Origin: Bacteroidales bacterium
GTDB lineage: Bacteria; Bacteroidota; Bacteroidia; Bacteroidales; UBA10428
Reading direction: 5' to 3'
Assembly (NCBI GenBank): GCA_016926375.1
Contig: JAFGOR010000150.1
Coordinates: forward strand, 1 to 55,111
Length of the DNA: 55,111 bases
Within the stretch, counting starts at the first letter, position 1. Each line of letters opens with the position of its first letter. Under the pieces are notes generated by a model, which saw only the letters and a program-made list of their open reading frames with translations, did not search any database and had not been told where the DNA came from. Below are positions 22,180 through 36,886 of the stretch, piece by piece. The position numbers were made by a program, and so were the translations under genes.

Positions 22180-25100
22180 ATGAATACCAGTAAATACATT
22201 GCGATATTTCTGACCTTACTGATGATCACAGTGGGGAGTAATGTCATATTGGACAACTGGCATTTCAAAGAAAGCGACCACAGAAGGCTGCAAAAAGAAA
22301 TCGATAAAAAATTCCTTCAAACGGATCGCATATTTAAGAAATTGCAGGATAGCAACTGGCAGTTAAATGCACAGCTAACCGGCGACAAAGGCATTACCAT
22401 GGTGGTTTACCACAATGACAGCCTGATTTACTGGTCCGATAATACCATGAGCTTTAAATCATTTGAGCAGTTTGAACTCATCGGAAAGCGTTTTGATTCC
22501 ATTTCAAATGGGTGGTATGTAATCAAGACCTATCAAATAGATTCCATTAAGGCTTACGGGTTGATACTGGTAAAATCGCAATATCCCTATGAGAATGAAT
22601 TCATGATCAGTGGCTTTCACCCCGACCTGAAGCTGCCGACTTCAACAAAACTTCTTACCGTTGCCCAACCGGGGTCCTTTGCAATTCACGACTGGGAGGG
22701 CATTTATTTGTTCTCGATCAAGTTCAGCGTCAGTGAACTCAGGTATTCCCGGCTGGAGAAATTCCTGATCCCTGTTTTGATATTTTTATTGATCATTGCG
22801 TTCCTGTTGCTTATTCACAACATCCTGGGCAGGATCCAAAAACCGGGACTGAAAAACGCTCTTTTAGGATTGATGATCGCATTCTTTGCCTTACTGAGGT
22901 GGATTCAATACAGGTACCATGTTCCTTCCGATCTCTATAACCTTGAGTTATTCGGTCCCGTACCCTTCGCAAAATCAACCATTTTACCTTCTCTGGGAGA
23001 TGTCTTCACAAATACCATACTGGTACTTTATATTGTGTTGGAATTTTTCCTGGGATTCAGGTTTCCGAAGTTTCTGAATAAGGAAAAAAAGTCGGGTCCC
23101 AATGCAACTATTGTGCTGATGATGATCGTTCTGACAGGTTTCTTCCTCTATACCCATTTTATTCTGTCGAACCTGATCCTGCACTCAACGATCAATTTTG
23201 AATTTTACAAAGCTGCAAGCGTCAGTGTTTATACCTTTGTAGGACTGCTTATAACGGCAATGCATTTCGGCGCATTGCTTTTGCTCAACCTTTATTTGCT
23301 TTCATTGTGCAAGGATAGCTGTGATTTGGGCAAACTGATCCTGACCTTTATTCTCGTAAGTTCCCTGGTGCTTGTCCCGGCATACCTGCTGAATTTCGGA
23401 TTTGACTGCGTTTCACACCTGGCCTTTCTGGTGATGTTTGCAGCCCTGGCTATCCTTCATTACCGCAGGATACCGGTGGGTAATTTCACCACCATGGCTT
23501 TTATTGTTATCTTTTTCTCATCCTACTCAGTTTACCTGTTTAATCATTATGCGAAACAGAAACTGATGAATAACATGAAGGTCATGGCTGAAAATCTGGG
23601 AGCACAACATGATCCTGTTGCAGAATACTTGCTTGAGGGTATCAGTGACAGGCTTAGCCAGGATAAGACGCTTAATAATTTTATGTTTAACTGGTCAATC
23701 AGCGATGAGCAGATCCATGACTACCTTCAAAGCAACTACTTTAATGGCTTTTGGGGAAAGTACAAGCTACTTTTCGAAGACTGTTATCCCAGTAAGGAAC
23801 TTTACGATGGCGATACGCTGAAGAACTGTTATGATTTTTACAACAGACGGCTGGAGGAGGGTAAAAGCATGCTGCTGCCCCGGTCCAGGTTTTATTTTCT
23901 CGACCTCCAGAACGGAAGAATCAATTACCTGGGCTGGATTACTTATAAACACCCCACCAGGAATATCGAGGTTTCCTTGTTTCTCGAACTGGAAACGAGG
24001 TTGGTTGCCGAGGAATTGGGTTTCCCGGAGTTGCTGCTCGATAAGAAATACAAGGAGAACCGTTTGTTGACAGAGTATTCCTATGCCAAATATTTCAAAA
24101 ATCAATTGTTGGCTCAATCCGGAACCTTCCAGTACAGCCTTGATCTGAACACCTATAAGGGAAAGCCTGTCAAATTCGAAGGCTATGACCACATCATATA
24201 TTATCTTACCAAAGACAATGTGGTAATGGTGAGCAAACCGGCCACCACATTCTTTAATCGGCTGATATCCTTTTCCTACATTTTCTTATTCAATTATATA
24301 ATTGTATTACTCATCATTGGCATCCGGAATTATTCGAAACTGGGCGGTGACATAGAATTCAACTTTAAGAATAAGATCCAGCTTTCCATCATTGCCATAT
24401 TATTCCTGTCACTCATCCTGGTTGGCGGGGGCACAATTTATTTCAGCATTCAGCAATACCAGAAAAAGCAACTCGACCTGCTCAGTGAAAAAATCCAGTC
24501 GGTTTATATCGAACTGGACCGCATGCTTGCCTACCTTCCCAACAAGATCAGCCCTTACCAGAAAGGTGATGGTTTTGATAACCTGGAACAATTGCTGATC
24601 AAGTTTTCAGATATTTTTTATTCCGATATCAATTTGTATGATCCCGATGGAAATTTGCTGGCTACCTCCCGGTCTGAGATATTCAGCAAGGGAATCCTGG
24701 GCGAGAAGATGGATCCTCTGGCGTACAGTAAAATGGTGAAAGAAAGACAGGCTGAATTCATCCACCGTGAAACCATAGGAAAACTGAGCTTTTTATCGGT
24801 ATATGTTCCTTTCGTGAATGTCGAGAATAAACTGCTTGCCTACCTTAATCTGCCATATTTTACCAAGCAGAATATTTTGAGAAATGATGTTACAACGCTC
24901 GTGGTGGCCATTGTAAATATTTATGTGTTGCTGATTTTGCTCACCATTGCCATGGCCGTCCTCATATCCGATCAGATAACCCGGCCTTTACGGATGATCC
25001 AGCAAAAGTTCAGCCAGATAAAGATCGGCAGGAAGAATGAAGAGATCATTTACAAGGGGCACGATGAAATTGCAGGATTAGTATACGAATACAACCGGAT

Positions 25101-25818
25101 GGTTAAGGAACTTGTGAAAAGCGTGGAGATGTTGTCACGGTCAGAGCGTGAAAGCGCATGGCGCGAAATGGCCAAACAAATCGCCCACGAGATCAAGAAT
25201 CCGCTCACGCCCATGAAACTGAGCGTGCAGCATTTACTCCGTTCGTGGAAAGACAACAAGGAGAATTTCGATGAGAATCTTGAAAAGGTTACGCGTACGC
25301 TGATCGAACAGATCGATAACCTTTCCTTTATCGCTTCGGAGTTCAGCAATTTTGCGAAAATGCCCAAGGCTTTCAATGAAGAAATCAATATCGTGGAAAA
25401 GATCAGGAACTCCCTGAATCTTTTTGTCAACACCGAAAATGTTGACTTTGTTTTTGAGCATGAGAGTGAAGAAATAGTAGTATTTGCTGATAAGGAGCAG
25501 TTGTCAAGGGTGTTTATCAATTTACTGAAGAATGCCATCCAATCTATCCCCGAAAACCGGCATGGCAAGGTGGGAATCAGCTTGGTTCTGAACGGTAAAA
25601 TGGTGCGTATAAGCATTACCGACAATGGAAAGGGTATACCTGAAGATCTTCAGGGTAAGCTGTTTACACCAAGTTTTACGACCAAGTCCAGCGGAATGGG
25701 ATTGGGTTTGTCGATCGTAAAGAATATTATTGAATCTTTTGGAGGGAATATTACGTTTAACACAAAAGTCAACCACGGCACGACATTCGTTTTTGAACTG
25801 CCGGTTCATCAATTGTAA
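22180..25818 (+). CDS. Large NtrY-like sensor histidine kinase, orphan
   Basis: A 1212-residue membrane kinase. Residues 1-25 form the first membrane segment, followed by a periplasmic domain (about 26-190), a run of roughly seven hydrophobic helices (195-450), a second extracytoplasmic-like domain (about 455-690), a membrane segment near 700, then another near 740, a sensor domain (760-900), a segment near 915-935 and a HAMP linker (about 935-990). The H-box is QIAHEIKNPLTPMKLSVQHL with His1003; the HATPase has NLLKNAIQS (N box), DNGKGIPED (G1) and GMGLGLSIVKNI (G2). The kinase core resembles NtrY. No response regulator is adjacent, so its partner is elsewhere. The extended multi-helix N terminus is unusual in size and probably senses a membrane or envelope condition. 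Confidence 0.88.
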   Translation: MNTSKYIAIFLTLLMITVGSNVILDNWHFKESDHRRLQKEIDKKFLQTDRIFKKLQDSNWQLNAQLTGDKGITMVVYHNDSLIYWSDNTMSFKSFEQFELIGKRFDSISNGWYVIKTYQIDSIKAYGLILVKSQYPYENEFMISGFHPDLKLPTSTKLLTVAQPGSFAIHDWEGIYLFSIKFSVSELRYSRLEKFLIPVLIFLLIIAFLLLIHNILGRIQKPGLKNALLGLMIAFFALLRWIQYRYHVPSDLYNLELFGPVPFAKSTILPSLGDVFTNTILVLYIVLEFFLGFRFPKFLNKEKKSGPNATIVLMMIVLTGFFLYTHFILSNLILHSTINFEFYKAASVSVYTFVGLLITAMHFGALLLLNLYLLSLCKDSCDLGKLILTFILVSSLVLVPAYLLNFGFDCVSHLAFLVMFAALAILHYRRIPVGNFTTMAFIVIFFSSYSVYLFNHYAKQKLMNNMKVMAENLGAQHDPVAEYLLEGISDRLSQDKTLNNFMFNWSISDEQIHDYLQSNYFNGFWGKYKLLFEDCYPSKELYDGDTLKNCYDFYNRRLEEGKSMLLPRSRFYFLDLQNGRINYLGWITYKHPTRNIEVSLFLELETRLVAEELGFPELLLDKKYKENRLLTEYSYAKYFKNQLLAQSGTFQYSLDLNTYKGKPVKFEGYDHIIYYLTKDNVVMVSKPATTFFNRLISFSYIFLFNYIIVLLIIGIRNYSKLGGDIEFNFKNKIQLSIIAILFLSLILVGGGTIYFSIQQYQKKQLDLLSEKIQSVYIELDRMLAYLPNKISPYQKGDGFDNLEQLLIKFSDIFYSDINLYDPDGNLLATSRSEIFSKGILGEKMDPLAYSKMVKERQAEFIHRETIGKLSFLSVYVPFVNVENKLLAYLNLPYFTKQNILRNDVTTLVVAIVNIYVLLILLTIAMAVLISDQITRPLRMIQQKFSQIKIGRKNEEIIYKGHDEIAGLVYEYNRMVKELVKSVEMLSRSERESAWREMAKQIAHEIKNPLTPMKLSVQHLLRSWKDNKENFDENLEKVTRTLIEQIDNLSFIASEFSNFAKMPKAFNEEINIVEKIRNSLNLFVNTENVDFVFEHESEEIVVFADKEQLSRVFINLLKNAIQSIPENRHGKVGISLVLNGKMVRISITDNGKGIPEDLQGKLFTPSFTTKSSGMGLGLSIVKNIIESFGGNITFNTKVNHGTTFVFELPVHQL

Positions 25819-25871: not shown

Positions 25872-25879
25872 TATATTTG
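25872..25879 (+). promoter_or_regulatory. Candidate -7 box for the T9SS-linked operon
   Basis: TATATTTG, a perfect match to TAnnTTTG, 32 bases before the TTG start at 25911. No exact TTTG at the -33 position. It would drive the five genes up to 36019. Confidence 0.48.
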
Positions 25880-25910: not shown

Positions 25911-28900
25911 TTGGCTTTGAAGAGGATTATAGGCATAATATCGGGCTTATGGATTTATTCCTTCTTAAGCTTTTCGCAAAACATCCAGATTTCCGGAGTC
26001 CCCAATTATTACCTGCGTGTTGATGAAGTGCAGACTAACCGTGTCAGGGTAACCGATGTTTTGGGAGGACAGATCAGCCACTTTCAATCGGAAAGTAAAG
26101 TTTTGCTGATCCAGATGACCGGGGCCGTCCCCTATTCAGGTGCGGATTTCAAAACAAGGGAAGCACGTACAAAAGAAGATATGGGTGATGTGGGAAGCTA
26201 CGAGATATTTCAGGTTGATGAAGTAGTTGCCATAAATGCCACGGAAGCCTGGGTTATTTTTACCGATGATGTCTCCCGGACCTACGATGCAGGTGAAAAA
26301 ATACAACTTGTAAAATTTGTGGAAGGTGAAACGGTCTCTACCACGGGTGCAGTAAATGCCCTGGATTGGAACGGAACCATAGGCGGCATTGTTGCCATCA
26401 TCGGTACCGATTCGGTAAAACTCAACCACAACATTGATGTCAGTGCCCAGGGTTTTCGCGGAGGTGCCATTCCTGCCGAAAACTACACAGGAGGTTGCCG
26501 GTATGGCTTGAGTTCAGTCATCAAAGACACTTTATTTTTCCTCCCGGCACAAATGAACCGGTCGGGAAACAAGGGCGAGGGAATTGTTACCACTGCATTT
26601 CCCTATACCAAGGGTACGGGATTCGCTATTAACGGCGGCGGGGCCGGAAACGGGCTATACTCGGGCGGCGGTGGCGGCAGCAATTACGCCGTTGGCGGTG
26701 ACGGAGGCCGGCAATCTCCCGTATGTTCGGGTTTATATCCGGCATTGGGCGGCTGGGGTGGTTATGGATGTTTTGAGCTTTACACGGCCGGAAACCGGAA
26801 GATTATCATGGGCGGAGGCGGCGGAAGCGGTACCAAACTTTCAACCTCAACTCCTTCCAAGGGAGGTGACGGTGGGGGTATCGCCATCATCATCACCGGG
26901 GTGCTTGCGGGCAATGGCAAATCAATTTTGGCGAACGGGGAGAATGCCACAGCTACGACCGGAAGCGGGGGTGGCGGCGGTGCGGGCGGAACGGTGATCA
27001 TTGATGCAACCAGTCTTTATGGAGCATTGACGGTTAATGCCAAAGGAGGAAGAGGCGGAAATACGACAGATGACGGCAATTGCACGGGATCAGGCGGCGG
27101 TGGCGGCGGTGGGGTCATCTGGCACAACGGCGCTTCCCTGGCTGCAATCGTTGACTTCTCATATGGCATTGCCGGCGCTGTTGGCAGTTCCTGCTCGCTC
27201 GTACTGGGTATTCCCGGCACGCCGGGTTCAACGGGTGCAAAAATCACAAACCTGATATCACCGCTTACCGGATTCCTGTTCAATTCGGTACATGGAAAGG
27301 ATACCATTTGCGCCGGGCAGACTCCCAATCTTCTTACCGCCAGCCAACCCAAGGGCGGTGATGGCACTTATATCTTTTTATGGGAAAAAAGCACAGATAA
27401 CGCCAACTGGACGGATGCATCCGGAACACAGCTGAGAACCTTCCAGCCACCGGCATTGAATCAGACAACCTGGTACAGGCGAATTGTCACCTCAAACGGT
27501 GTCTTTGACACTAGCCGGGTAATTCAGGTTTTTGTATATCCTGTCATCAGCAACAATACGATTTATGGCATTGATACCATTTGTTACAACAATCATGCGA
27601 AATTGATTACAGCAGCCCAACCCACCGGCGGAAACAATGCATCCTACATTTACCAGTGGCAGTCACGCGACAGTGAAAGCATATGGAGCAACATGGGCGC
27701 CACCCGGACCTCAAATACACCGCTCGATCCGGGAGTACTCACGAAAACGATGTATTACCGTCGCCTGGTGAGCTCAACCGCATATTGCGCGGATACCAGC
27801 AATACCGATAAGATTACGGTATTGCCTTCAATCTTAAACAACGGCTTTGCCACCAGTGATACATCCATATGTTTGAATCAGAGCCCGGGACAGCTCAATG
27901 CTTTAACTCCCGGCGGTGGCGATGGCACCTATTCTTTTTCCTGGCAATATAAGCCGGCATCCGGTAACTGGACCAGCCTGGCTTCAAGCAATGTGCTCCG
28001 TTACACCGCAGGTGTGCTGACCAATGAAACTCTGTTCCGCAGGATTGTATATTCAGGGAATGACAAGGCTTGCATTGACACCGGAACCGTCAAAACGGTG
28101 CATACCATGCCCCTGATAACCAACAACAGCATACTGGGCAGCACCGTTCAGTATACATGCTACAATACACCTATTTCATTGCCGGGTTCTTCGCCTCTGA
28201 ACGGATTCAACACCTACGCATACCAGTGGGAACAAAGCAATGACAACAGCACATGGAATTCGGTCACGGGTGCGGACCGCGATTATGTGTCAGCAAACCT
28301 CACCAGCAGGAAGTATTTCAGAAGGATTGTATATTCCTCACCCGCTTACCACGAATGCACCGACATCAGTGACGCGGTTGAAGTGAGGATCAATCCGCTG
28401 CCTACGGGGGATGTAAGTGTGGATCGGGATACAATATGCGCAGGTGAAACCTTGTATGTAAAATTCAACCTGGCAGGCAGCGGACCTTTCAATGTTGCTG
28501 TCGCCGGTGAAAGTATTCCCGGTTCATCCAAAACAGGCATTACCGCACTTACTGATTCTGTAGCCTTTACTCCCGCTACCTCACAGCAGTTCACGATGTA
28601 TTCGGTGGAGGACGACAGCGGTTGCTTTGCCGATATTACAGGTTTTGCCAACGTTTCGCACGGCATAGTATATGCAGTTCCTGTCGCCAATGCAGGGACC
28701 AGCCAGGAGACATGCGGCCTGAACTATACGTTGCAGGCTGTTAAAAATATAAGCGGTTCTTCGGGTTTGTGGACAGGAACCGGTGTGACATTCAGCGATC
28801 CATCCAATGCCACCACCCAGGTTACTTCCGGAAGTTATGACACCAAAATGTTGAAATGGACTGAAACCAACTGGCATTGTTCTGATGAGGATGAAATTGA

Positions 28901-29444
28901 AATTACATTCCAGGAACAACCACCAGCGCCCGATGCAGGTCCCGACCAGAGTCTTGATTTCAGTTACATGGCCCAGCTTCAAGCGGTTGAACCGATCGTG
29001 GGTACTGGAAAATGGACCATTGAAACCGGTTCAGGAGAATTTGACAATGACATACTGCCCAACGCCGTCATCAGCGAGCTGGCCAGTTCCACAACTCTCA
29101 GATGGACCGTTACCAACGGAAGCTGTCCTGAGGTTTCCGACATCATGGAAATTCTGGTCAATCCGCTGGTCATTCAGAAAGGATTTACACCCAACGGTGA
29201 CAGCAAAAACGATGTATTTGACATTGGTGCCACCAATGCTGAGCTTATCAGGATTAAAGTATTTAATAGCGCAGGCGTACTGGTTTTTGAATCGGATAAT
29301 TACCAGGAAGGGGATCTCTGGGATGGATACAATATGGATGGAGTTGAATTGCCCGAAGGCACGTACTTTTATCTGGTCGACATGAAAATTGCGGGCAGGC
29401 AGGAGGAAGTGCAATTCAGGTCATTTGTTGAAATACTAAGATAA
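25911..29444 (+). CDS. T9SS type B sorting-domain surface protein, glycine-rich with Ig-like repeats
   Basis: An 1177-residue exported protein. The start is TTG (25911 or 25917): the frame has no upstream ATG before a TGA at 25878, and a signal peptide follows at once (LKRIIGIISGLWIYSFLSFSQ). Residues about 40-230 form a beta-rich domain; 240-450 is very glycine-rich with GGGGGSNYAVGGDGG-type runs; then about four related 90-residue Ig/PKD-like repeats each containing a TIC or SIC motif and a YQW or FSW strand (near 465, 550, 645 and 740). The last 90 residues, VIQKGFTPNGDSKNDVFDI... to the end, are the gliding motility-associated (CHU_C) type B sorting domain, which directs secretion by the T9SS and attachment at the surface. 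The PorP/SprF gene follows immediately, as expected for a type B cargo. Probably an adhesin or structural surface protein. Confidence 0.85.
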   Translation: MALKRIIGIISGLWIYSFLSFSQNIQISGVPNYYLRVDEVQTNRVRVTDVLGGQISHFQSESKVLLIQMTGAVPYSGADFKTREARTKEDMGDVGSYEIFQVDEVVAINATEAWVIFTDDVSRTYDAGEKIQLVKFVEGETVSTTGAVNALDWNGTIGGIVAIIGTDSVKLNHNIDVSAQGFRGGAIPAENYTGGCRYGLSSVIKDTLFFLPAQMNRSGNKGEGIVTTAFPYTKGTGFAINGGGAGNGLYSGGGGGSNYAVGGDGGRQSPVCSGLYPALGGWGGYGCFELYTAGNRKIIMGGGGGSGTKLSTSTPSKGGDGGGIAIIITGVLAGNGKSILANGENATATTGSGGGGGAGGTVIIDATSLYGALTVNAKGGRGGNTTDDGNCTGSGGGGGGGVIWHNGASLAAIVDFSYGIAGAVGSSCSLVLGIPGTPGSTGAKITNLISPLTGFLFNSVHGKDTICAGQTPNLLTASQPKGGDGTYIFLWEKSTDNANWTDASGTQLRTFQPPALNQTTWYRRIVTSNGVFDTSRVIQVFVYPVISNNTIYGIDTICYNNHAKLITAAQPTGGNNASYIYQWQSRDSESIWSNMGATRTSNTPLDPGVLTKTMYYRRLVSSTAYCADTSNTDKITVLPSILNNGFATSDTSICLNQSPGQLNALTPGGGDGTYSFSWQYKPASGNWTSLASSNVLRYTAGVLTNETLFRRIVYSGNDKACIDTGTVKTVHTMPLITNNSILGSTVQYTCYNTPISLPGSSPLNGFNTYAYQWEQSNDNSTWNSVTGADRDYVSANLTSRKYFRRIVYSSPAYHECTDISDAVEVRINPLPTGDVSVDRDTICAGETLYVKFNLAGSGPFNVAVAGESIPGSSKTGITALTDSVAFTPATSQQFTMYSVEDDSGCFADITGFANVSHGIVYAVPVANAGTSQETCGLNYTLQAVKNISGSSGLWTGTGVTFSDPSNATTQVTSGSYDTKMLKWTETNWHCSDEDEIEITFQEQPPAPDAGPDQSLDFSYMAQLQAVEPIVGTGKWTIETGSGEFDNDILPNAVISELASSTTLRWTVTNGSCPEVSDIMEILVNPLVIQKGFTPNGDSKNDVFDIGATNAELIRIKVFNSAGVLVFESDNYQEGDLWDGYNMDGVELPEGTYFYLVDMKIAGRQEEVQFRSFVEILR

Positions 29445-30353
29445 ATGCGAAGATCAATTATCATATTGTTTTGCCTTTTGCTGTCAGTCATCCTTGAAGC
29501 CCAGGAGAAAGCGCTCCTTTACAGCCATTACAGCTTTAACGGACTGGCTATTAACCCGGCCTATGCCGGTAGCAGGGAAATGCTCAGCATCAGCGTTTCA
29601 CACCGAAGCCAGTGGATGGGCTTTGAAGGTGCGCCTTCGTATAATATCGCCGGCCTTCACACTCCCTTTAAAAACACAAAGATGGGACTGGGATTGCTAG
29701 TAATGAATGAAAGCATCGGGCTGCGCAAGTATACGGGCATTTATGTAAATTATGCACACCGGTTGACACTGGGGAACGGAAAGCTCGCCCTGGGCCTGAA
29801 AGGCGGCATTTCCACCGGTAAATTCGAGCTGATCGATCTGGGTGGAGATGATGTCGTTTTCAGTGAGAAGTCGAGCAGTTACCTGCTGCCGAATTTTGGC
29901 ATGGGGATGTATTATTACACCCGAAAGTTCTACGCAGGCCTGTCAGTGCCGCTTATTCTGGGTTATGAAACCAATGAGACAGGCGAAGTTACAGCCTATC
30001 ACGATTTCAATAAATATGCTTATTACCTTTCGGCAGGAATTACTTTTGACATTGCTGATAACTGGCAGTTGCAGCCTTCAGGCCTGGTGGAATATGATAA
30101 GGCAGGCGGAGTCATTGCCGACGGCGGTTTAAGCTTGTTATACAAGGACGCCCTTCGTGTTGGCGCATCCTACCGCAGCAAACAGGCAATAGTAATGTTG
30201 CTTGACTACAAAATAAACTATCAGCTGCGGGTGGGCATTGCCTATGATTACGGATTGAACGACTTGAATGCTTACAACAGGAACTCCTTTGAGATTGCCC
30301 TGGAGTATAATTTCGGATATCAGATCAGAGCAGCAAACCCGACGATATTTTAA
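29445..30353 (+). CDS. PorP/SprF family type IX secretion outer-membrane protein
   Basis: A 302-residue beta-barrel protein with signal peptide (1-19, ending EAQ). It shows the family opening YSHYSFNGLAINPAYAGSREMLSISVSHRSQW and FEGAPSYNIAGLHTPF, then GLGLLVMNE and alternating amphipathic strands to a terminal aromatic-rich end. In Flavobacterium, SprF is needed to export and anchor the type B cargo SprB; PorP is the Porphyromonas relative. The start codon directly follows the stop of the T9SS cargo gene, so cargo and partner are coupled. It likely handles that specific cargo rather than being the core PorP of the secretion machine. Confidence 0.88.
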   Translation: MRRSIIILFCLLLSVILEAQEKALLYSHYSFNGLAINPAYAGSREMLSISVSHRSQWMGFEGAPSYNIAGLHTPFKNTKMGLGLLVMNESIGLRKYTGIYVNYAHRLTLGNGKLALGLKGGISTGKFELIDLGGDDVVFSEKSSSYLLPNFGMGMYYYTRKFYAGLSVPLILGYETNETGEVTAYHDFNKYAYYLSAGITFDIADNWQLQPSGLVEYDKAGGVIADGGLSLLYKDALRVGASYRSKQAIVMLLDYKINYQLRVGIAYDYGLNDLNAYNRNSFEIALEYNFGYQIRAANPTIF

Positions 30354-30359
30354 TCAACA

Positions 30360-31793
30360 ATGTTTTCCTATAAAAAAATATTTTTTTCCGTATTCCTGAT
30401 TCTTTGTGCCTGCCCCGGGCTTTTTTCCCAGGATCACTTTGAGGTAAAACGCCTTCTATTAAACACATCGGCCAGGGAGATGGCCCCGGCGTTCTATCAG
30501 AACGGAATCGTGTTTTGCTCCGACCGCAAAAATGAAGTGCTTACCAGTTATGTCGACCTGAACTATAATATGTTCACCAACCTATATGTGGCGGAACAGA
30601 AGAAACCCGGCAAATTTGAGCATCCCAGGCTGATGTCCAGGGAGCTCACCACTTTTTTATATGAAGGTCCGTGTACATTCAGCAAAGACGGAAAAACCAT
30701 TTATTTCACCCGTTCAATCAATGTATCGACGAGTTCCAGGAACAAGAACCGGGCAGATACAACCTTCGGGATCTTTAGTGCCACCTGGTCGGGTGGGGAA
30801 TGGGCAAATCTTACCCAGTTCAGGTTCAACCGACCCGAATACAATACGGGTTACCCCTGCCTTTCTGATGACGGCACCCAGCTGTTCTTTTGTTCTGATG
30901 CTCCGGGCGGGTTTGGAGGGATGGACATTTATGTTTCGAGGCTGGAAAACGGGCGGTGGGCAGCACCCGAAAACCTGGGACCGGCTATCAATACCTCTAA
31001 AAACGAGGTCTTCCCTTTTTTGCATTCCAGCGGAAGACTGTATTTCTCATCCCGGGGTTTGACTCAGAAGGGTGACCTGGACATATTCTATACCGTTAAA
31101 ATTGACGATGTATGGCAAAAACCCGTGCCTATGTCGGAACCTTTCAATTCAAACCATGATGATTACGGGCTGATTCTTAATGCAGCCGCAGATACCGGCT
31201 ATTTTGTTTCGGACCGCTCAGGTTCAGCGGATATTCTTTCTGCCTATTCAACAATTCCCACTTTCACACATTGCCCCGATCAGCAGGAGAATGATTATTG
31301 TTTCGTATTTTATGAACCCAACAACAACGAGGTTGATACAACAACTTTTGCCTATGAATGGGACCTCGGCGACGGAACCATAATCAGAGCGCTTGAAGCA
31401 GAACACTGTTTCGCCAGGCCCGACACCTATCAGGTTCAGCTAAATATCATTGATAAGCTTACCAGGGAATTAATGGCCAACCAGGCAGATTATACCTTTG
31501 TAGTATCAAAAATCGAGCAGGCTTATATTCATGGTCCTGAGACGGTAGCGCAGGGACAGGAGATAACCGTGAACGGACACGAAACCTATCTGAAAGATTT
31601 TACCGTTGATCAATACTACTGGGATTTTGGTGACGGATTCCGGGCCTCCGGATCCGATGTGAAACACCTTTTTGTTTTCCCCGGTACTTATAGTCTCACG
31701 CTGGGAGTAACCGATAAAACGGATGACAAAAATGAATCTGATCGCACAAGCTGCGTAACCCGCAAAATTATTGTGATAAGCCCGCAAAAGTAA
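30360..31793 (+). CDS. PD40 beta-propeller plus PKD-domain exported protein
   Basis: A 477-residue protein with signal peptide (MFSYKKIFFSVFLILCACPGLFSQ). Residues about 30-295 form a WD40-like (PD40) propeller with typical blades: APAFYQNGIVFCSDR, EGPCTFSKDGKTIYFTRS, YPCLSDDGTQLFFCSDAPGGFGGMDIY and PFLHSSGRLYFSSRG. Two PKD domains follow (about 300-385 and 395-475) marked by YEWDLGDG and YYWDFGDGF. It resembles the front half of PorE-type proteins but has no OmpA domain, so it would not bind peptidoglycan. It sits 6 bases after the PorP/SprF gene and is probably a periplasmic or surface partner of the secreted structure. Confidence 0.82.
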   Translation: MFSYKKIFFSVFLILCACPGLFSQDHFEVKRLLLNTSAREMAPAFYQNGIVFCSDRKNEVLTSYVDLNYNMFTNLYVAEQKKPGKFEHPRLMSRELTTFLYEGPCTFSKDGKTIYFTRSINVSTSSRNKNRADTTFGIFSATWSGGEWANLTQFRFNRPEYNTGYPCLSDDGTQLFFCSDAPGGFGGMDIYVSRLENGRWAAPENLGPAINTSKNEVFPFLHSSGRLYFSSRGLTQKGDLDIFYTVKIDDVWQKPVPMSEPFNSNHDDYGLILNAAADTGYFVSDRSGSADILSAYSTIPTFTHCPDQQENDYCFVFYEPNNNEVDTTTFAYEWDLGDGTIIRALEAEHCFARPDTYQVQLNIIDKLTRELMANQADYTFVVSKIEQAYIHGPETVAQGQEITVNGHETYLKDFTVDQYYWDFGDGFRASGSDVKHLFVFPGTYSLTLGVTDKTDDKNESDRTSCVTRKIIVISPQK

Positions 31794-31805
31794 TTGCCCT
31801 TTGAG

Positions 31806-31826
31806 GATTCATGTATAAAATGAATC
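31806..31826 (+). terminator. Weak hairpin inside the T9SS-linked operon
   Basis: GATTCAT (31806-31812) pairs with ATGAATC (31820-31826) across a 7-base loop, with a T6 run a few bases later. The 92-base gap is the largest in this operon, so it may be a partial terminator or processing site before the last two genes. Confidence 0.3.
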
Positions 31827-31885
31827 TATTCCCGTTTTTTATCGTATAGCAAGTAAACAACAACCGAACATCTGAATTATATCCT

Positions 31886-32857
31886 ATGAAGTACTTTTCA
31901 TTTCTAATATCGGCCCTGTTAATTACTGCCGGTTTACAGGCTCAGCCTGTGCCTGCAGGAGATGAAAATATTCCTTATCTCATGACTTTTGGCCCGAAAG
32001 CCGGAACATCGTGGGGCGATGATGATTTCTCGCAGACATTCTTTTTTCTTGTTCCCAAAGGTTTTTCACAATCGGTTTATATCAGGGTTTATGATCCTGA
32101 TATCAGCGGCTCAACGGATGAGGTGAATGGGGTCTTTGATACCAGGATGACGTATTCGGTATATGGGGGAAAGGAAAGTTATTCGCACAAAGACGCTATG
32201 GAAACTTCACCCAGGGGCAATTACAAGAGCGGGAACCTGCTGGCCTCGAAAACATTCGGTAACCAGGTCGATTATGATAACAAGTGGTATACTTTCGGAC
32301 CTTTCAATCCATCAGAAGGTGAATTTGTGCAAAGATTTGACGGCTATGTTTTTAAAGTCATCTGCGACGGCATGGCCGGTGATGATGGCAATCTTTACCG
32401 GTATTTCCTTTCGACCAGGATGGATGAGAACAAAGCCATCGAGGGAGCCAATGCCTTTGCATATGAATATTCGTTTCGTATGCATGACAATGCCACAGAA
32501 GTATCCCATATTTACCCGCTGGTTGACGACAGGACAATCTCGGTGAAACTCTCCAATTTTGACTGGGACTCGGACGGATTGATTCGCTGTGTATCCGTTG
32601 CCCGTAAAGGCCAGCTCTGCCCGGTATCCGGGGAAGATGTATGGGCCGAGAAAGAATTCACCATTTTTGATGAAGAAAAAAACACTTCACTCGATATTCA
32701 GTTTATCAAACGAAAAACACCACCTGTCAAAAATAACAACGTGGTTGTTAATGTCCGCAACCAGTATGGAGAGTTGCTGCCCTTCTACGTTATTCCAATC
32801 GGAGGTGTGCCCAAGTATAAGGCTGGCATTGATGTCAGACCCATGACGAAGAAATAA
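31886..32857 (+). CDS. Secreted protein of unknown family in the T9SS-linked operon
   Basis: A 323-residue protein I do not recognise. It has a signal peptide (MKYFSFLISALLITAGLQAQ), then a beta-rich mature part with many aromatic and acidic residues: IPYLMTFGPKAGTSWGDDDFSQTFFF near the start, VYIRVYDPDISGSTDE near 70, and ISVKLSNFDWDSDGLIRCVSVA near 220. No catalytic motif stands out. The DxDxSGSTDE and DWDSDG segments look like calcium-binding loops, which is a guess. It ends 9 bases before the propeller/SpoIIE gene, so the two are almost certainly cotranscribed, and it may be the periplasmic ligand-binding partner of that sensor. Confidence 0.7.
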   Translation: MKYFSFLISALLITAGLQAQPVPAGDENIPYLMTFGPKAGTSWGDDDFSQTFFFLVPKGFSQSVYIRVYDPDISGSTDEVNGVFDTRMTYSVYGGKESYSHKDAMETSPRGNYKSGNLLASKTFGNQVDYDNKWYTFGPFNPSEGEFVQRFDGYVFKVICDGMAGDDGNLYRYFLSTRMDENKAIEGANAFAYEYSFRMHDNATEVSHIYPLVDDRTISVKLSNFDWDSDGLIRCVSVARKGQLCPVSGEDVWAEKEFTIFDEEKNTSLDIQFIKRKTPPVKNNNVVVNVRNQYGELLPFYVIPIGGVPKYKAGIDVRPMTKK

Positions 32858-32866
32858 ATTTTACCT

Positions 32867-35800
32867 ATGCGCAAGGTTTTTTATTCAGTTCTAGCGGCTT
32901 TAGCCCTATTTTTTTCCCTGCCAGGCACATCCCAGGATTACAGGATAAGCCATTTCGGGTTAACCGAAGGTATCTCGCATCAATACGTGTATACAGTCAG
33001 CCAGGATAATCACGGGTATATCTGGATAGGAACCGGGCAGGGACTATGCCGTTTCAACGGAATCGCTTTTGACACGGATATCTTACAGGACTCGCTGGGT
33101 ACCGAGGTGGCCCAGTCAAGCATCAGAGACAGCCGTGGAGTCCTCTGGTTTGGCTACCAGAACGGAGATATCGCTAAATATGACGGAACTTCTTTCTCCA
33201 CCATAAAGCCTGGAGTTGAAATTTCCAGCGCTGTCACCGGTTTTGCAACATTGGAGGATGGAAACCTGATTGTATCCACGCAGAACAACGGCCTATTCAG
33301 TATGAATGCGCAAACAGGCGCAGCGAACCCTGTTTCCGGCATTGACAAGGGTTTGTTTACAGCTTTGTCCGTGAAAGGCAAAATTCTTTTGCTGGGTTCC
33401 ATGGAAGGATTAACCATATACTCGATTGATGGGACAGGCAACAACGCTGAGGTTCTTATGAAGATCTCAGAGTTTGATTTTATCAAAATACAGGATATAC
33501 AGCCTTCTTATGCTGAGAATATATTCTGGATAGCTACCGAGGAAGACGGGGTCTTCCGGTTAACATTGCAAGGAGGTACCTACGATCTCACCAAAATAGC
33601 CACCGAATCCAGGTTAGCTTCGGCAAAAGTGCAGTCAGTGCTTGAGGATTCTGATAAGCATTTATGGGTAAGTACATTATTGGGTGGATTATACCGGTTA
33701 AGCTTGCCTGACAAGAACGGGAATTTTGCTTCGGCTACTTTATACAATAAGCAGAACGGACTTTCTGAAGATGCAGTAAAAAAGGTGTTTGAAGATATCG
33801 AAGGCAATATATGGATTGCAACCTATGGAGGCGGTTTGAATTTATTTACCGGACAGGCATTTTCGTTTTTGCAGCAGGATGTGAATGGGTTGGACAATGA
33901 CATCCAGTCCGTTGTTATCACCGATGAAGACATTATGTACCTGGGGGGACCCGGTGGGTTATTCCGCGGTAAAAAGGGCGCCGACAGGTCCGCAACCAGA
34001 ATTGCCGGTGTTCCGGCAGACCGGATAATGGTTTTGCATACCGAAGGGAACAAGCTCTACATAGGCACTGAAAAAAACGGTCTGTTTCTGTTGGATATCA
34101 GGAGTGGTGCTGTGCGAAAAATTGCCTATGAAGCCGGATCTCTCGGCAGTCAGGTAAGCGCCATAGCCACCAGCGACCAATATGTATACCTGGGCACCCG
34201 GGATGGGATCTATAAATTTAGTAAGGATCTGCGTGAAGCTGTACATTTTACAACTACCAGCGGATTGCCGCATAACAGCATCGAACAGATCTATTTCGAC
34301 AGTAAAGGCAGACTTTTAATAGCAACACGCGCCAATGGCATTTTCCAGCTAACCGAGGATGACAGCATCAAAAATCTTTTCCCGGCGGGAAATACCGAAA
34401 TTGAGTTTAAATCTGTAATTGAGGATGATCAGGGAGGAATATGGGCCGCAACCTATGGTGACGGAATTGTCTATTTCAAAGATGATTCTGTTTACCAGTT
34501 CACCGTTTCTTCGGGTTTGAAATCAAATTATTGTTACAGCCTGGCAAAAGGACCTGATCAGAGCATCTGGATCGGACACAGGCTCGGATTGAGCAGGATC
34601 AAAACATCGACCATGAAAATCAGTGTTTTTGACAAGAACATGGATATTACCGGGGACTGCAATCCGAATGCTTCTTTTGTCGATAAAACAGGGGTGCTGT
34701 ATTTTGGTACCACCGAGGGTCTTGTTACCTATGATCCTTCCCTGGAAAATGAGAAAAAGCAGCCACCATTCACCAACATTGTGAGTCTTCTGATTTCTGA
34801 CAAGCCTTATGATTTTGGGAAGGAAATAGTACTTCCTTACCGTCCCTATAAACTGAGAATTGACTTCATCGGTCTGAATTACAGTGATCCGCAATCGGTT
34901 CGCTACCAGTACAAGCTCGAAGGGAACGATCTGGAATGGTCCGATGTCACATCCCAAACTTATGTTACCTATCCGAGGATCGAGGATGGGGAATATATTT
35001 TCTACCTGAGGTCGTTTAATAATGAAGGTCTCAGTCAGGAAACACCGGTAACCGTTAAAATCAGGATAAAGCCTCCATTCTGGAAAACCTGGTGGTTCAT
35101 GGCTTTATCATTGCTCACCCTTGTTTCAGCCGTATACCTGATCATCAAAATACGGGAGCGCAAGCAAAAACAATTGCAGGAATACCTGGAACGGGAACTC
35201 ACCCTGCGCACCAAAGAGGTCGTGGAGCAGAAGGAAGTAATTGAAATAAAGAACCGGGATATTACCGACAGTATCAATTATGCAAAACGCATACAAACCA
35301 GTATGCTGCCACCCATCAGGAGGCTCCAGCAGCACTTTTCAGGATGTTTTGTTTTCTACAGCCCCAGGGACATTGTAAGTGGTGACTTTTACTGGTTCGA
35401 CCAGGTAAACAACAACAAGTTCACCATAGTTTGCGCGGATTCAACCGGACACGGGGTACCGGGAGCCTTTATGTCAATGATCGGTTCAACACTGATCAAG
35501 GATATTTGCACACGTGAAGCCGGTAATTCTCCTTCACAGGTTTTGCAGGTTCTGGATAATGAACTGAGAAATACACTCAATCAGAATCTCGAAGATGGCA
35601 CAAAGCCGGGTGACGGAATGGATATCATTGTATGTGAGATTGATCTCAAAACGCATTATGTCAGATATGCCTCAGCCATGCGACCCATGATTATTTACCG
35701 CAACGGCGAGGAATACTTTGTGAAGGGAAGCCGGAATTCAGTGGGCGGACATTATGACCGGGAAGATAACCTGTTTGAAGATGAAGGTCTTCAATTGAGC

Positions 35801-36019
35801 AAAGGCGACATCATCTACATGTTCTCCGACGGTTATTCTGATCAGTTCGGAGGTCCCATGGGTAAAAAATTTAAAATGGTGAGACTGAAGAACCTCCTCC
35901 AGGATATTCACCAGAAACCCATGGAAGAGCAGTATACGCACGTGAAAAATACTTTCAACCTCTGGAAGGAGAACTATGACCAGGTGGATGACGTGCTGTT
36001 CATGGGAATTAAGATCTGA
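32867..36019 (+). CDS. Transmembrane sensor: two-component regulator propeller, Y_Y_Y domain and SpoIIE/PP2C phosphatase
   Basis: A 1050-residue protein. After a signal peptide (1-22), repeated Reg_prop units such as GLTEGISHQYVYTVSQDNHGYIW and EDIEGNIWIATYGGGLNLF form two periplasmic propellers (about 25-640), then a Y_Y_Y domain (650-735) with YQYKLEGNDLEW, one membrane helix (738-762), a basic coiled coil (765-830) and a cytoplasmic SpoIIE-type PP2C domain with SGDFYWFDQV, CADSTGHGVPGAFMSMIGSTL, GDGMDIIVCEID and YMFSDGYSDQFGG. The metal-binding Asp residues are present. The layout matches hybrid two-component sensors, but the output is a Ser/Thr phosphatase, so the likely target is an anti-sigma-factor antagonist or similar, not seen here. 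Its stop abuts the stop of the convergent rluB gene with no spacer. Confidence 0.88.
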   Translation: MRKVFYSVLAALALFFSLPGTSQDYRISHFGLTEGISHQYVYTVSQDNHGYIWIGTGQGLCRFNGIAFDTDILQDSLGTEVAQSSIRDSRGVLWFGYQNGDIAKYDGTSFSTIKPGVEISSAVTGFATLEDGNLIVSTQNNGLFSMNAQTGAANPVSGIDKGLFTALSVKGKILLLGSMEGLTIYSIDGTGNNAEVLMKISEFDFIKIQDIQPSYAENIFWIATEEDGVFRLTLQGGTYDLTKIATESRLASAKVQSVLEDSDKHLWVSTLLGGLYRLSLPDKNGNFASATLYNKQNGLSEDAVKKVFEDIEGNIWIATYGGGLNLFTGQAFSFLQQDVNGLDNDIQSVVITDEDIMYLGGPGGLFRGKKGADRSATRIAGVPADRIMVLHTEGNKLYIGTEKNGLFLLDIRSGAVRKIAYEAGSLGSQVSAIATSDQYVYLGTRDGIYKFSKDLREAVHFTTTSGLPHNSIEQIYFDSKGRLLIATRANGIFQLTEDDSIKNLFPAGNTEIEFKSVIEDDQGGIWAATYGDGIVYFKDDSVYQFTVSSGLKSNYCYSLAKGPDQSIWIGHRLGLSRIKTSTMKISVFDKNMDITGDCNPNASFVDKTGVLYFGTTEGLVTYDPSLENEKKQPPFTNIVSLLISDKPYDFGKEIVLPYRPYKLRIDFIGLNYSDPQSVRYQYKLEGNDLEWSDVTSQTYVTYPRIEDGEYIFYLRSFNNEGLSQETPVTVKIRIKPPFWKTWWFMALSLLTLVSAVYLIIKIRERKQKQLQEYLERELTLRTKEVVEQKEVIEIKNRDITDSINYAKRIQTSMLPPIRRLQQHFSGCFVFYSPRDIVSGDFYWFDQVNNNKFTIVCADSTGHGVPGAFMSMIGSTLIKDICTREAGNSPSQVLQVLDNELRNTLNQNLEDGTKPGDGMDIIVCEIDLKTHYVRYASAMRPMIIYRNGEEYFVKGSRNSVGGHYDREDNLFEDEGLQLSKGDIIYMFSDGYSDQFGGPMGKKFKMVRLKNLLQDIHQKPMEEQYTHVKNTFNLWKENYDQVDDVLFMGIKI

Positions 36020-36886
36020 TTATTTAAAGGCATTCATTTTCAGCATGGCAATTTCTTTCTCCGAGAGAAACCGCCATTCTCCCCGGCGAAGGTTTTTCTT
36101 GGTTAATCCTGCAAAATAAACCCTGTCGAGTTTGGCTATTTCATACCCCAGGCTTTCAAAGATCCTGCGTACAATATGGTTCCGTCCTGAATGGATCTCA
36201 ATGCCAACCTGTTTTTTATCTACCGGGTCAGCATAGCTGATGGAATCAGCTTTGATAAAACCATCCTCCAGGGTAATGCCGGATGCTACCTTATCCATGT
36301 CTGCCTGTTTCAGATTTCTATTCAGGTATACATGATAGATTTTTAACTTTTCAAATCTCGGATGCGTCAGTCTTTTGGTAATTTCACCGTCATTTGTAAG
36401 CAGCAAAACACCCGTGGTATTGCGGTCAAGTCGTCCCACCGGATAGACCCTTTCTTTGCAGGAGCCTCTCACAAGCTCAAGAACGGTTTTTTTTGCATGC
36501 GGATCTTCAACGGTAGTAACATAATCTTTGGGCTTGTTCATCAGAATGTAAACCTTTTTTTCTTCGCGCAATGTTTCCCCGTTGTATTTCACAATGTCTG
36601 TTGAACTGACCTTAACACCCAGCTCAGTGACCAGTTTTCCGTTCACGGTGATAAGCCCGGCCTGGATAAATTCATCGGCTTCACGCCTGGAGCAGATACC
36701 TGTACTGGCAATGTATTTGTTCAAACGAATGAACTCGCTTTCATGACCCGTTTTGGGCATTTCTTTGAACTGTCTTTTCGTTCGGGGCACTTTCCGTTCT
36801 GTTTTTACCGGTGCTTTTCCTTTCGAAGGAGCGCTTCTTTTTTGGGATGCAGCTCCCGCTTTTCTGGAACCTCTGGCTATGACCAT
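36020..36886 (-). CDS. rluB: 23S rRNA pseudouridine synthase, RluB/RsuA family
   Basis: A 288-residue protein: a Lys/Arg-rich N-terminal extension (1-46), an S4 RNA-binding domain (about 50-110, IRLNKYIASTGICSRREADEFI), then the RsuA/RluB catalytic fold with ILMNKPKDYVTT, the catalytic Asp in YPVGRLDRNTTGVLLLTNDGE, LTHPRFEKLKIYHVYL and SGRNHIVRRIFESLGYEI. It makes a pseudouridine in 23S rRNA, probably position 2605 by analogy with RluB. The basic extension is common in Bacteroidota members. Its stop codon begins one base after the end of the SpoIIE gene. It diverges from glmM. Confidence 0.88.
   Translation of the reverse strand: MVIARGSRKAGAASQKRSAPSKGKAPVKTERKVPRTKRQFKEMPKTGHESEFIRLNKYIASTGICSRREADEFIQAGLITVNGKLVTELGVKVSSTDIVKYNGETLREEKKVYILMNKPKDYVTTVEDPHAKKTVLELVRGSCKERVYPVGRLDRNTTGVLLLTNDGEITKRLTHPRFEKLKIYHVYLNRNLKQADMDKVASGITLEDGFIKADSISYADPVDKKQVGIEIHSGRNHIVRRIFESLGYEIAKLDRVYFAGLTKKNLRRGEWRFLSEKEIAMLKMNAFK

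Follow-up and report, generated by a model that had tools for sequence, protein, structure and literature searches.

In P. gingivalis, PorE has been reported to bind both PorP and the type B cargo PG1035 (PMC9143113), and in F. johnsoniae a type B cargo of the type IX secretion system (T9SS) that is encoded with a PorE homologue appears static, the published mobile adhesins being encoded without a PorE-like gene (PMC12618676). The CxC motif in the C-tail of SprF links this protein to GldK (PMC12635249). Feedback on T9SS expression has been published for PorA, a surface CTD protein (PMC7712824), and sensors of the BT4663 type, with Reg_prop and Y_Y_Y domains, bind sugars (PMC5121618).

The locus described here joined an anchor part and a sensor architecture that were each known, and their combination, together with one of its proteins (D), was described in nothing that we found. 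Namely, the open-access literature (subscription papers and preprints were outside the search) yielded no paper in which SpoIIE and type IX secretion appeared together and nothing on point about propeller-SpoIIE proteins in Bacteroidetes. This agreed with the preliminary description of the locus, to which the combination was not known as a described system.

Gene layout and gene products

The window, i.e. the whole stretch of 55,111 nucleotides that was analysed, was contig C193 of a 3.43 Mb assembly that was 86% complete. The features relevant here were as follows.

22180-25818, + strand: histidine kinase, candidate sixth member, 1212 aa, about 11 TM segments, HisKA and HATPase_c
25872-25879, + strand: TATATTTG, candidate Bacteroidetes-type -7 element (TAnnTTTG), located 31 bases ahead of the A start codon, consensus match only
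25911-29444, + strand: gene A, T9SS type B cargo, 1177 aa, TTG start
29445-30353, + strand: gene B, PorP/SprF-family outer-membrane carrier, 302 aa
30360-31793, + strand: gene C, PorE-type PD40 propeller with two PKD domains, 477 aa
31822-31848, + strand: ECF-sigma-like candidate promoter GAATC-N16-CGTATA upstream of D, spacing conserved in several lineages
31886-32857, + strand: gene D, secreted, probably all-beta protein of no known family, 323 aa
32867-36019, + strand: gene E, Reg_prop propellers, Y_Y_Y, one TM segment, coiled coil and SpoIIE PP2C domain, 1050 aa

The gaps A-B, B-C, C-D and D-E were 0, 6, 92 and 9 bases by ORF coordinates, and the gene directly after E (36020-36886) was convergent, so the unit ended at E. 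The preliminary description had listed the same five genes and the same gaps, which matched exactly, and the domain searches bore out each of its domain labels; the one thing it had omitted was the histidine kinase upstream of A. Of the 46 loci where the gene before A could be read, 40 had a multi-TM histidine kinase in this position, directly adjoining A, also where the downstream neighbour differed, and it may be part of the system. No response regulator adjoined it in the window.

Protein A had a signal peptide, an AgmC_N-like glycine-rich domain (residues ~32-415), Ig-like repeats and a C-terminal CHU_C/type B CTD (1088-1165; CHU_C E 4.9e-19; TIGR04131 37.9 bits, cut-off 35). Its glycine-rich N-terminus (window 25968-27275) resembled that of Myxococcus AgmC, with an AgmC_N score of 165 bits that was below the curated cut-off of 275; scores in a similar range were obtained for five of the six A homologues scanned. 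The AF2 model of residues 20-455 had a pLDDT of 92.9, and Foldseek against the PDB gave no good fold match for it (best query TM at most ~0.21).

Protein B, encoded without any gap after A, was assigned to PorP_SprF (E 1e-65; TIGR03519 236 bits, cut-off 90.55). The CxC motif of the periplasmic SprF C-tail was absent from B in the window and from all B homologues (0/70). Since B lacked this tail, a gliding role appears unlikely, and A as a gliding adhesin was disfavoured. The suggestion in the preliminary description of a surface filament or adhesin with its own sensing pathway was supported in part, in that the type B protein and its carrier were genetically locked to a propeller/SpoIIE sensor.

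Protein C matched the PorE model NF052230 (E 9e-48) over model positions 146-407 of 648, with 163 bits (below the curated cut-off of 600), and domain searches in the window found PD40 and two PKD domains, no TPR and no OmpA-type peptidoglycan-binding domain. By its sequence C is a homologue of the PorE-type propeller, and A-B-C can therefore be considered a variant of the published cargo-PorP-PorE complex (PMC9143113, PMC12618676), that is, a putative static anchor with the wall-binding end missing and D-E following it. The C protein of locus L136 had an OmpA domain and was intermediate towards PorE. As for the T9SS translocon, SprA_N was present in 20 of 23 family genomes and gave no match in the 86%-complete assembly itself; after the search of the family genomes, the missing SprA was treated as incompleteness.

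Protein D had no Pfam or NCBIfam match and no sequence homologue in the PDB. Its AF2 model was all-beta (pLDDT 85.9, pTM 0.84; the other four models were lower, 74-77), and its Foldseek matches were tandem jelly-roll or beta-sandwich proteins, namely SIDT ectodomains, DeCLIC N-terminal domains and ColG tandem collagen-binding domains. These matches had good E-values and low global TM-scores (at most ~0.27 by query) and were used for the fold class only; on this predicted structure D is probably an all-beta protein with a tandem jelly roll. The invariant motifs WGDD, GxDG and NFDWDxDG would suit a calcium-stabilised structure, which is a guess. A viral origin of D was rejected: no relative was found among 2.9 million viral contigs, and the viral fold matches were generic beta-sandwiches. 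Outside the class, 12 of the 13 loci read encoded proteins of ~1600 aa that began with a D-like domain and contained long PKD arrays; the weakest matches of this survey were marginal. Such fusions tied D to the type of domain found in C.

In three of the loci outside the class (L180, L181 and L187) a SpoIIE gene was found within a few genes of the giant D-PKD protein, which may be a coincidence. The only such SpoIIE protein scanned, that of L180, had a receiver domain, and the D-PKD gene of this locus also adjoined a cyclase with a Cache-like domain and a FecR-LysM protein.

Protein E contained Reg_prop, Y_Y_Y and SpoIIE domains (SpoIIE E 3.3e-20; 73.3 bits, cut-off 25), with a single hydrophobic TM segment at ~742-763 and the SpoIIE PP2C domain at 850-1049; its output domain was thus SpoIIE and not a histidine kinase or response regulator. 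All the PP2C metal-binding motifs (SGD, DSTGHGVPGA, SDG and QVDD) were present, and they were intact in 64-66 of 67 E proteins. The SiaA model covered residues 768-1048 with 163 bits, far under its cut-off of 700. On a small tree, E proteins encoded beside D grouped, with support 0.98, apart from the two additional propeller-SpoIIE proteins that this genome encodes. No phosphatase partner gene was found in the cluster. The genome encoded two STAS proteins with DSSG and one RsbW-like kinase outside the cluster, so a partner switch is possible.

Two further propeller genes deserve mention. In one relative (L173:7139-12531) the propeller protein beside D ended without SpoIIE, and D was immediately preceded by a histidine kinase and LytTR regulator pair, as though one output module had replaced another. 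At L142:5151-10739 (contig C241 of the assembly that contains the window) another propeller-SpoIIE gene followed a TPR-caspase (Peptidase_C14) gene by 33 bases on a common strand.

Distribution, spacing and conservation

D was found in 22 of 23 family genomes, in 58 of 393 genomes sampled from the order and in 49 of 395 sampled from the class. We then surveyed the best 80 named genome loci encoding D, which came mostly from uncultured Bacteroidales. The order A-B-C-D-E was kept on one strand in 64 of these 80 loci, which argues for more than chance, and 12 of the 16 remaining loci were truncated at contig ends. The SpoIIE gene therefore co-occurred with PorP/SprF in other genomes; a lack of such co-occurrence was one of the two outcomes that the preliminary description had named as refuting it. 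D-E was preceded by genes other than A-B-C in L126, L128 and L134, and an OmpA-domain protein preceded D at the contig edge of L131. Among the 20 loci read in the class-level survey, all five genes were present in nine (including L157 and L158, where one member each was masked by an overlapping frame in ORF picking), D-E without A-B-C in five (L160, L162, L165, L166 and L173), a PKD protein with D-E in three, and C or a PKD protein with D and no E in three (L159, L174 and L175). D adjoined E, a PKD protein or both in 20 of 20. Thus, A-B-C-D-E is a real, widespread unit, and the pair D-E or the pair C-D, not a strict A-E set, makes up its core, because D-E persisted without A-B-C and C-D without E in different lineages.

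Variants of the cassette were also seen. Several family members possessed a distinct paralogous cassette (L052-L058; D ~56% identical, C ~650 aa), and L127 and L136 had the arrangement A-B-C-A-B-D-E with the cargo and carrier pair duplicated. The assembly itself contained a second copy of the cassette on contigs C4 (L033) and C178 (L140), with D at 82%. That this copy is a paralogue arisen by duplication is less likely, since on C178 it carried the downstream flank of the window (rluB, PGM, a DUF5686 gene and era); more probably it stems from another strain or species within the MAG.

The median gaps in the named loci were 0 for A-B, 2.5 for B-C, 92 for C-D and 11 for D-E (78 loci for D-E). 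Thus, A-B-C and D-E formed two tightly spaced blocks. In several lineages the C-D gap contained GAAAC-N16-CGTATA or a close variant, which we take to be the layout of an ECF-sigma promoter. The strict pattern had 17 matches in 100 loci (1.58 Mb), and all of the 11 intergenic ones were on the operon strand, where seven preceded D and four preceded A. The -10 part alone occurred in 19 of 72 C-D gaps, as against 2.4 +/- 1.5 in first-order Markov sequences, the loci being mutually related and so not fully independent. A genome-wide search with the strict pattern was uninformative (4 matches, 2 in the reversed control). The ECF-type motif was recurrent and not universal, many lineages being without it.

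Two other explanations of the C-D gap were discarded. The published SigP motif differed from GAATC-N16-CGTATA in a comparison by eye, and folding of the relatives' gaps gave no common stem that would represent a conserved RNA hairpin; what the gaps held instead was the promoter motif. Elsewhere in the genome, at L194:1501-2812 (contig C155), the same ECF-like motif was located ~76 bases before the gene of a 402-aa secreted protein whose C-terminus resembled the type A T9SS sorting domain; this motif match is possibly due to chance.

Identities were calculated as medians against the window proteins over up to 70 loci, and the housekeeping yardsticks came from fewer loci. The medians were 34% for A, 38% for B, 40% for C, 65% for D and 45% for E, and 61% for era, 62% for PGM and 63% for RluB. 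D was thus as conserved as housekeeping genes and was, ahead of the sensor, the most conserved member. Within E the identity rose from the propellers (33-37%) to Y_Y_Y (51%), the TM segment and coil (63%) and SpoIIE (65%). The propellers, which would face the surface complex, varied along with A-B-C, and D and the phosphatase were conserved.

Possible signalling across the envelope and its alternatives

We consider a trans-envelope cassette for outside-in signalling, which would have a T9SS type B surface anchor as its base and pass the state of A through C and D to E, to be the best explanation, and we put its chances a little short of even. That it represents an undescribed class of outside-in transduction is a more tentative proposal; here a T9SS-displayed protein would be wired via its carrier, a PorE-derived propeller-PKD link and the adaptor D to an inner-membrane PP2C phosphatase, with signalling replacing cell-wall anchoring. 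The signalling interpretation was based on the conserved order in the named and class-survey loci, the homology of C to the PorE propeller, the D-PKD fusions, the constant position of D beside E or a PKD protein, and the intact phosphatase motifs. It was further based on the contrast between variable propellers and a conserved phosphatase and D, on the separate grouping of the E proteins beside D, on the STAS (DSSG) and RsbW-like proteins of the genome and on SprA in the family genomes.

From these observations we infer in the following way which proteins touch each other, what is signalled, what the phosphatase acts on and which response results. A would be secreted by the T9SS and then kept on the surface by the carrier B, and C, having no peptidoglycan-binding domain of the PorE kind, would dock on the periplasmic face of B. 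The PKD domains of C would reach D, a rigid all-beta adaptor, which in turn would touch both propellers of E in the periplasm. If A bound a ligand, made contact with a surface or failed to assemble, the C-D-E contact could be altered, so that the propeller pair would move as in Reg_prop sensor kinases and the cytoplasmic PP2C phosphatase would be switched. The phosphatase would most likely dephosphorylate a STAS-type antagonist and thereby change transcription, perhaps including that from the ECF-type promoter of D-E itself.

Part of the evidence spoke against such coupling. In L126, L128 and L134, as in five loci of the class survey, D-E stood without A-B-C, which indicated that D-E can work in the absence of the surface complex. 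The C-D gap was the widest of the four and can accommodate a promoter, so the A-B-C and D-E blocks may be regulated apart; the lack of a phosphatase partner in the cluster and the three loci with C-D and no E also counted against signalling from A to E. In the main rival model D-E would sense an environmental ligand, for example a glycan or calcium, on its own, D serving as the binding protein in the periplasm, and would merely control the expression of A-B-C from the same cluster, which would be co-regulated and not coupled. The same eight loci, the tight spacing of D-E, its own promoter motif in some lineages and the sugar binding of known Reg_prop/Y_Y_Y sensors such as BT4663 (PMC5121618) would all suit this model. 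However, C-D occurred without E, and the D-PKD fusion outside the class tied D to domains of the C type and not to E alone. We regard an independent sensor as the less likely of the two.

It is also conceivable, and in our judgement improbable, that E serves as an assembly checkpoint, reading the building of A-B-C from an accumulation of free C or D in the periplasm and tuning secretion rather than sensing outside contact. Such a checkpoint would share its gene evidence with trans-envelope signalling and would be comparable to the feedback proposed for PorA-PorXY-SigP, PorA feedback on T9SS expression being published (PMC7712824), and an ECF-type motif did lie beside the cassette. On the other hand, the cluster had no core T9SS genes, and the motif differed by eye from that of SigP. 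A purely structural role, in which C and D would belong, together with A, to a structure of the envelope or matrix and E would be present by neighbourhood only, seems very improbable: the giant D-PKD proteins outside the class look structural and C-D without E exists, but D-E was the tightest long-range pair (median gap 11, 78 loci) and E persisted where A-B-C was lost. Least probable of all was ancestral synteny without functional meaning. In its favour, the flanking rlmH, kinase, rluB and PGM genes also had a common order in the closest relatives; against it, the neighbour downstream of E varied in most of 66 loci with A-E unchanged, the gaps were near zero, whole second cassettes with D ~56% identical were found in several family members, and D was fused to PKD arrays.

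If signalling from A to E is true, it would constitute a trans-envelope route that uses the T9SS, and it would matter in a phylum in which most type B surface proteins, like the many propeller-SpoIIE proteins, have no known function. Moreover, the analysis singled out D, a protein of no known family with conservation at the housekeeping level, and made the question of D as a bridge between the surface complex and the sensor directly testable.

Comparison with described systems

The closest relatives of the anchor part were PG1035-PorP-PorE of P. gingivalis and cassettes of the Fjoh_3952-3951-3950 type of F. johnsoniae, in which a type B cargo, its cognate PorP/SprF carrier and a homologue of the PorE propeller are likewise encoded together (PMC9143113, PMC12618676). 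In comparison to them, C had PKD domains in place of TPR and OmpA domains, and D and E followed; no sensor has been described for those known complexes. The SprB-SprF gliding adhesin system shares the type B cargo and the SprF-family carrier, but B was without the CxC of the C-tail (0/70) and a PorE-like gene was present.

On the sensor side, E resembled the hybrid two-component sensors of the BT4663 type in its two periplasmic propellers, Y_Y_Y domain and one TM segment. In contrast to them, its output was a SpoIIE PP2C phosphatase rather than a kinase, and it was encoded with a surface-protein cassette and not in a polysaccharide utilisation locus. With the SiaA/RsbU-type PP2C phosphatases of partner-switch pathways E had in common the C-terminal PP2C domain with its metal-binding motifs, whereas its sensor half was unrelated and no partner genes were present in the cluster. 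Finally, PorA-PorXY-SigP was similar in the proposal that a surface CTD protein sends its signal inward by way of an ECF sigma factor (PMC7712824), and differed in its proteins, in having a kinase where the present locus has a phosphatase, and, by eye, in the promoter motif.
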